A stretch of DNA of 64,000 nucleotides from an uncultured SAR86 cluster bacterium (lineage in GTDB: Bacteria > Pseudomonadota > Gammaproteobacteria > Magnimaribacterales > D2472), in the NCBI GenBank assembly GCA_902630885.1, contig CACOWI010000003.1, positions 1 to 64,000 on the forward strand, in the 5' to 3' direction. How positions within the stretch are numbered: position 1 is the first letter of the stretch; each line of letters starts with the position of its first letter. The position numbers and the translations under genes are program-made. Shown here piece by piece: positions 44,105-44,619 of this stretch. The notes under the pieces were generated by a model, which was given only the letters and a program-made list of their open reading frames with translations, was not told the origin of the DNA and searched no databases.

Positions 44105-44133
44105 TTGTATACTGTATATATATACAGTATAAT
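44105..44133 (+). promoter_or_regulatory. LexA-box promoter (SOS operator) of the 72-residue gene
   Basis: TACTGTATATATATACAGTA at 44110-44129 is the perfect E. coli LexA consensus, within a 24-bp perfect palindrome (44108-44131). It fills the spacer of a sigma-70 promoter: -35 TTGTAT at 44105-44110, 17 bp, then -10 TATAAT at 44128-44133. LexA bound here would block RNA polymerase. The -10 ends six bases before the ATG at 44140, so transcription should start at or next to the start codon and give a leaderless mRNA. Confidence 0.9.
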
Positions 44134-44139
44134 ACTATT

Positions 44140-44358
44140 ATGAGTAACTTAGTATATTTAAATAATGATCCCATCATTTTGGAATTAGAATCATCAGTTA
44201 ATAAGGATGCAGTAAAAAAGACGCTTGCATTTAAGTATTTTAATGGTGATGAAAGTCTTTTAATTGAGTATTTGAGGACCAATCTTTATGAAGATGTTAA
44301 ACCTTCATTTAAAAATCATTATATTGAACCAAAATCTCAATTAGAATTTTCTTTTTAA
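44140..44358 (+). CDS. LexA-controlled 72-residue protein with possible beta-clamp-binding tail
   Basis: A small soluble protein (Met-Ser-Asn-Leu start) with mixed helix and strand and no membrane span. It matches no family I recognise. Its last six residues are Q67-L68-E69-F70-S71-F72, which fit the pattern of the hexapeptide sliding-clamp-binding motif (Q-L-x-hydrophobic-x-hydrophobic). E. coli Pol IV also ends in such a motif. The promoter is a textbook SOS promoter, so the protein should be made after DNA damage. A role at the replication fork (clamp competitor, checkpoint or accessory factor for translesion synthesis) is inferred from these two features only. No ribosome-binding site is present because the transcript is predicted to be leaderless. 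Confidence 0.75.
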   Translation: MSNLVYLNNDPIILELESSVNKDAVKKTLAFKYFNGDESLLIEYLRTNLYEDVKPSFKNHYIEPKSQLEFSF

Positions 44359-44395
44359 TAAACATATTAATACTTTTTTTATTTATACAGACGTA

Positions 44396-44609
44396 TATAA
44401 TCTTAATTGGTGTCTTATTTAGTGATTTTTTAAGGGGATTGCTAAATATTTTATTACTACCCTGAATATGGAGGTGGTCCTATTAGTATTTATTTAAAAT
44501 CAGGAAGCGGAGGATTTGCCTTTTGACAGGGGTAATTTTTTAGTTTCCGGCTAACAAATGTCTTTTACAGGAGTTAGTTCATAACCCCCAATTTATTTGG
44601 GGGTTTTTT
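44396..44609 (+). ncRNA. Candidate structured leader RNA (riboswitch or attenuator) of the EamA gene
   Basis: This 261-bp gene-free region holds a possible -10 TATAAT (44396-44401, weak -35) and ends in an intrinsic terminator 11 bases before the EamA start codon. Alternative pairings can be drawn. TACCCTG (44458-44464) can pair with CAGGGGTA (44527-44534, one bulged G). CCTGA (44461-44465) can instead pair with TCAGG (44500-44504). GGGGT (44529-44533) can also pair with ACCCC (44584-44588), the 5' arm of the terminator, as an antiterminator. CTAAC (44551-44555) can pair with GTTAG (44573-44577). This is how transcriptional riboswitches and attenuators are built. No known riboswitch class (TPP, FMN, SAM, cobalamin, guanidine, glycine, SRP or 6S RNA) was recognised. 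A free-standing small RNA is the alternative. Confidence 0.45.
44583..44609 (+). terminator. Intrinsic terminator just before the EamA gene
   Basis: AACCCCCAA pairs with TTGGGGGTT (9-bp stem, loop TTTAT), followed by six T. It cannot serve the 72-residue gene alone very economically, lying 225 bases past its stop codon. Its place 11 bases before the next ATG suggests it controls read-through into the transporter gene. Confidence 0.9.
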
Positions 44610-44619
44610 ATTACCATTT

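Follow-up and report, generated by a model that had tools for sequence, protein, structure and literature searches.

A LexA-controlled 72-residue protein of SAR86 bacteria as a predicted two-part sliding-clamp ligand or adaptor

The SOS polymerases of E. coli, which are Pol IV (QLVLGL), Pol V (UmuC, QLNLF) and Pol II, are controlled by LexA and carry a clamp-binding motif, which in Pol IV and Pol II is located at the C-terminus. The SAR86 protein described here likewise combines predicted LexA control with a C-terminal clamp-like motif, but it consists of only 72 residues, has no polymerase domain, and bears the motif attached to a helical domain of no known kind. A terminal hexapeptide is also present in Hda, which in SAR86 has the same aromatic form, QLxFx[FW]; in Hda, however, the motif stands at the N-terminus, ahead of an AAA+ domain, and a two-mismatch search of seven genomes of SAR86 family f1 returned no LexA box for hda. 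In eukaryotes, p21 (CDKN1A) is a small, DNA-damage-induced protein with a C-terminal clamp motif, but the analogy is functional only: p21 is connected with PCNA and p53, and has no homology to the 72-residue protein. The genes sulA, sidA, yneA and sosA are, like this gene, small lineage-restricted SOS genes, while the 72-residue protein differs from their products in having no membrane segment or family match and in ending with a clamp-like tail. The most similar described activities are those of SocB from Caulobacter and RipA from pneumococcus (PMC9690074, PMC12795458), which are small non-polymerase proteins aimed at the clamp, SocB by means of a clamp-binding motif. Both of them are parts of toxin–antitoxin systems, whereas the SAR86 gene is solitary under its LexA box, and the likeness is one of activity. 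No description of the 72-residue protein was found in the literature searched, nor any work there joining SAR86 with the SOS response, and the one paper that names SAR86 and LexA together concerns Novosphingobium. Judged from the comparisons below, the protein is best explained as a LexA-controlled two-part sliding-clamp ligand or adaptor, a reading to which we assign a probability of about 0.8.

The window, which is the whole stretch of 64,000 nt that was analyzed, comes from contig C3 of a 1.06-Mb assembly that is 79% complete. The host is a streamlined marine gammaproteobacterium of SAR86, one of the commonest bacterial groups of the surface ocean, where it is exposed to strong sunlight. 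The open reading frame (44140–44358, forward strand, stop codon included) is preceded on the same strand by a −35-like hexamer TTGTAT (44105–44110), read directly from the sequence, and, at a spacing of 17 bp, by the −10 hexamer TATAAT (44128–44133), which is separated from the ATG by six bases, ACTATT. Between them lies the palindromic LexA operator TACTGTATATATATACAGTA (44110–44129, no strand assigned), which has the exact E. coli-type consensus. The coordinates confirmed the operator, both hexamers, the 17-bp spacer and the six-base gap as given in the initial annotation, except that the spacer had been equated with the LexA box, while the box overlaps both hexamers by one to two bases and slightly exceeds the spacer. 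Hence, the operator overlaps the promoter of the gene. At the position equivalent to the −35 hexamer, TTG[ACT] or TTTAC was found in most relatives from genera g1, g2, g5, g6 and g8. In our reading, the operator is placed inside the −35/−10 spacer in most genera, but downstream of an upstream promoter in g7, g9 and g10, which indicates that it was retained across at least two promoter layouts. In most relatives sharing the spacer layout the distance from the −10 hexamer to the ATG is conserved at 6–9 nt, with six bases as the commonest value, and Shine-Dalgarno-like bases were rare (6 of the 75 regions upstream). Both observations agree with a leaderless mRNA or a very short leader, so that the gene is predicted to encode a leaderless, SOS-controlled small protein; the leaderless transcript that had been proposed stands as a prediction.

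A search with the protein only, among 150 relatives and the genome of the window itself, identified 63 genomes with a homologue, which span ten genera of the single SAR86 family f1. Although the box was not used in this search, TACTGT-N8-ACAGTA was located just upstream of the gene in all 63 homologues. When 369 genomes sampled from the class were searched with profiles, matches were obtained in SAR86 family f1 only, the sampled gammaproteobacteria outside SAR86 contained no relative, and no homologue was detected in the viral contigs, phages and plasmids that were searched. The gene is absent from some f1 genomes, for example the well-assembled relatives G031 and G002, in which the only exact boxes are those of recA and umuDC, and it is thus dispensable. 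In 67 loci an EamA-like transporter gene follows on the 3′ side, and this synteny points to vertical inheritance, while the upstream neighbor, a 196-residue open reading frame with no family match, is present in part of the loci only.

The exact operator 16-mer occurs once in the window, and the pattern TACTGT-N8-ACAGTA has three sites in the 1.06-Mb genome, at recA, umuDC and the 72-residue gene, while the reversed-pattern control has none; hence, the operator is not a chance occurrence. The genome encodes both lexA and recA, each under a LexA box, that of lexA having one mismatch. When two mismatches were allowed, the search, which covered seven f1 genomes, returned four boxes in this genome, those of lexA, recA, umuDC and the 72-residue gene. 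The same four units were found in G016, G034, G039 and G065, and the seven genomes held just two extras, namely another copy of umuDC in G012 and a single weak site in G044. Across 16 well-assembled SAR86 genomes there were 2–5 full boxes per genome and none of the reversed control, and the full boxes were located on recA, umuDC and, where present, the 72-residue gene; two full-box sites without a conserved gene (G016:1169334 and G041:418844) are likely due to chance. The box of lexA is exact in genus g9 and has one mismatch elsewhere. Taken with the box at all 63 homologues retrieved by protein sequence, these data support the proposal of LexA control, and the gene is almost certainly part of the SOS response, with LexA as its predicted repressor. 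The genome-wide box counts also support the earlier suggestion of a reduced SOS set, in which the 72-residue gene is, by its box, one of about four units in SAR86, together with lexA, recA and umuDC. UmuC was the sole type of Y-family polymerase in the 14 genomes checked, and a single one except for the duplicated umuDC of G012, whose two LexA-boxed copies lie about 5 kb apart (L105 and L106; C1 706045 and 710865). In the 59%-complete assembly G064 (L085, L162) the recA and umuC frames look broken, which is probably an assembly or sequencing error.

The proteins of the family are 70–77 residues long and consist of two conserved modules joined by a free linker. A three-helix domain at residues 10–48 (44167–44283, forward strand) is predicted from a structural model and conservation, with modeled helices at residues 11–18, 22–33 and 38–49, and in another model, for which a homologue from g9 was used, the block pLDDT was about 90 over the domain core. 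It is followed by an unconserved, high-entropy linker at residues 49–64 (44284–44331, forward strand), and by the tail QLEFSF at residues 67–72 (44338–44355, forward strand), so that the C-terminus reads PKSQLEFSF. Only three residues, A30, F34 and Q67, are invariant among 67 full-length sequences. In 258 pairs the dN/dS ratio was 0.14 overall, 0.07 in the domain, 0.44 in the linker and 0.01 in the tail, values that are only approximate because synonymous sites are near saturation, although the contrast between the parts is still large. The operator, the regulon, the two-part architecture and the selection on both domain and tail can thus be read from the sequences themselves. The IMS catalytic domain is absent, as the protein has no Pfam hit and the single IMS protein of the genome is encoded elsewhere. 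Searches of Pfam, NCBIfam, PHROGs and PADLOC returned scattered weak matches only, each to one or two members, and searches of the PDB by sequence and by fold, as well as of viral structures, gave nothing above chance, which bears out the view that the protein belongs to no known family, while the missing fold match is no proof of a new fold. A UBA-like resemblance of helices 2 and 3 (D-x-x-x-A-x-x-Y-L), noticed by eye, was dropped as it was unsupported by any search.

The tail resembles the motifs by which proteins bind the clamp. According to a 2024 review, natural motifs follow either Q-phi-x-[LM]-[FL] or Q-phi-x-[LM]-x-[FL], and the clamp binder most often recovered by phage display was LQLELDF (PMC11139829). 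QLEFSF has Phe at position 4, where this pattern has Leu or Met, while the forms QLELPF, QLELF, QLAMF and QLELL found in other homologues fit it fully (PMC11139829). QLEFSF and close variants occur in g1, g2 and g5, with QMEFSF in g5; QLELPF was found in two g1 homologues, QLELFS in g4 and g5, QLELL in g6, QLAMF in g8, QPELI in g7, QPELLH in g9, and QPELF in g10. QPELI resembles QPLLI of MutL, a deviant clamp motif of E. coli, and QPxL tails may bind differently, because the Gln of MutL does not enter its subsite (PMC11139829). The initial annotation had compared the tail to that of Pol IV; its clamp-like character and conservation were upheld, but QLEFSF is closer to QLTFPW, the Hda N-terminus of this genome, than to RQLVLGL of E. 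coli Pol IV (PMC11139829). The phenylalanine at position 4 is also shared by the SAR86 Hda N-termini QLIFPF and QLFFDF (L164–L172). SAR86 DnaN is a standard clamp, in which the cleft segments TDAHRL and YVVMP are retained, and the tail is predicted to be accessible, being C-terminal and placed after an unconserved linker with no predicted secondary structure. As a separate observation, the SAR86 Hda hexapeptides are aromatic, in contrast to the leucine form in E. coli, and SAR86 DnaN ends with LLI; the cleft of the SAR86 clamp may have co-evolved with aromatic hexapeptides.

An accidental resemblance of the tail, in a protein with some unrelated SOS function, would explain why it is missing from most homologues in family f4 (see below), and short motifs arise easily. 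This explanation is very improbable given that Q67 is present in 67 of 67 full-length homologues, that the tail has the lowest dN/dS (0.01), and that the motif was found in 68 of 69 f1 homologues, with QPELSF counted, against an expectation of 1.1% for shuffled proteins; when the residues of the 72-residue protein itself were shuffled, Q[LM]x[FLM]x[FLW] arose at the C-terminus at a frequency of 1e-4. The tail also switches among clamp-compatible forms, and the Hda of the same clade shares its form. In the light of established clamp motifs, it is very probable that the tail binds the DnaN clamp.

The initial annotation had named homologues lacking the motif or the box as evidence against the proposal, and such a case was found in part: box and tail occur together throughout f1 but seldom in f4. 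Family f4 belongs to the same order; its homologues are shorter (49–56 residues) and retain the domain, and the start of the gene directly adjoins the operator (TACTGTATACTTATACAGTATG). Five of the six f4 homologues inspected have box and domain but no Gln motif at the end (NNKNSSISF and similar), and only one (G098, QKDLF) has a clamp-like tail; a profile search gave two further f4 members, and these tail counts refer to the six. The clamp-like tail is thus, by its occurrence, mainly a property of family f1, and the persistence of box and domain where the tail is mostly lost indicates that the domain has a function of its own.

If the protein is a two-part clamp ligand or adaptor, LexA cleavage after DNA damage would free the promoter inside the operator, and the accumulating protein would occupy clamps by placing its tail in the hydrophobic cleft of DnaN. 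It could then act as a brake, competing with Pol III and the other proteins that use the clamp, and also helping the exchange to UmuC, or as an adaptor, whose tail brings a partner of the N-terminal domain to the clamp. A braking role in replication is conceivable, though we hold it with some reserve. Its simplest form, a p21- or SocB-like blocker that fills the cleft and slows replication during SOS, with the N-terminal domain serving for stability or turnover, would fit the small size, the SOS control and the strongest selection falling on the C-terminal motif, and small clamp-directed inhibitors exist, as SocB inhibits elongation through its clamp-binding motif (PMC9690074) and RipA targets DnaN (PMC12795458). 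We regard such a pure blocker as rather doubtful, given that the N-terminal domain is likewise under strong selection (dN/dS about 0.07) and is retained in f4 without the tail. There is also no adjacent antitoxin gene, the neighbors being the 196-residue frame, a noncoding element and the EamA-like gene, and no boxed antitoxin-like partner gene was seen. A clamp-tethered adaptor or polymerase manager, with the N-terminal domain binding, for example, RecA, UmuD/UmuC or DnaE, would account for two conserved modules on either side of a free linker, and for a domain that persists in f4; each genome checked also has a single Y-family polymerase, UmuC, except for the duplicate umuDC in G012. On the other hand, UmuC has a clamp motif of its own (QYSLF in this genome) and does not depend on an adaptor for access to the clamp, so that this role, too, is put forward tentatively. 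The retention of the domain in f4 with the tail mostly dropped leads us to lean slightly toward the adaptor or manager.

The SOS regulons of other bacteria often contain a small division inhibitor, such as SidA/DidA, YneA or SosA (PMC4211646, PMC13396833, PMC6851548), and the 72-residue protein could instead be a division checkpoint protein in the role of SulA or SidA, its tail being recognized by a partner other than DnaN. In family f2 the extra LexA-boxed gene encodes an unrelated protein of 61–62 residues with a single transmembrane segment, which suggests that the extra SOS slot may be a checkpoint slot. We consider this explanation unlikely, because the 72-residue protein has no long hydrophobic or membrane segment and no match to SulA or another family, and because its tail fits clamp motifs in several alternative forms. 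In f2 itself (L223:943, L227:995, L229:922) the 61–62-residue frame begins directly next to a full LexA box, and its product (M[NK]D...WIDRLITS.Y...), which has one C-terminal membrane segment and no Pfam family, is a candidate for a small membrane protein of the SOS response similar to SidA or TisB.

If the SOS response of SAR86 consists of a repressor, an activator, one bypass polymerase and a clamp ligand, then the ligand marks an SOS function that is hard to drop, and with a small ligand induced through LexA, control exerted directly on the clamp would become a primary output of the response. By analogy, the new family might be the only dedicated non-enzymatic effector of this minimal response, a p21-like ligand that halts or re-partitions replication at damaged forks, although we advance this view with caution.

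The locus contains a further conserved feature, an intergenic element of about 200 nt (44395–44613, forward strand) between the 72-residue gene and the EamA-like gene. It matches no Rfam family at the gathering score, has its own TATAAT and terminator, and is highly conserved across SAR86 genera, with compensatory changes in 13 of 44 predicted pairs. It contains several GGA motifs, and our guess is that it is possibly an RNA of the CsrA-sequestering type.
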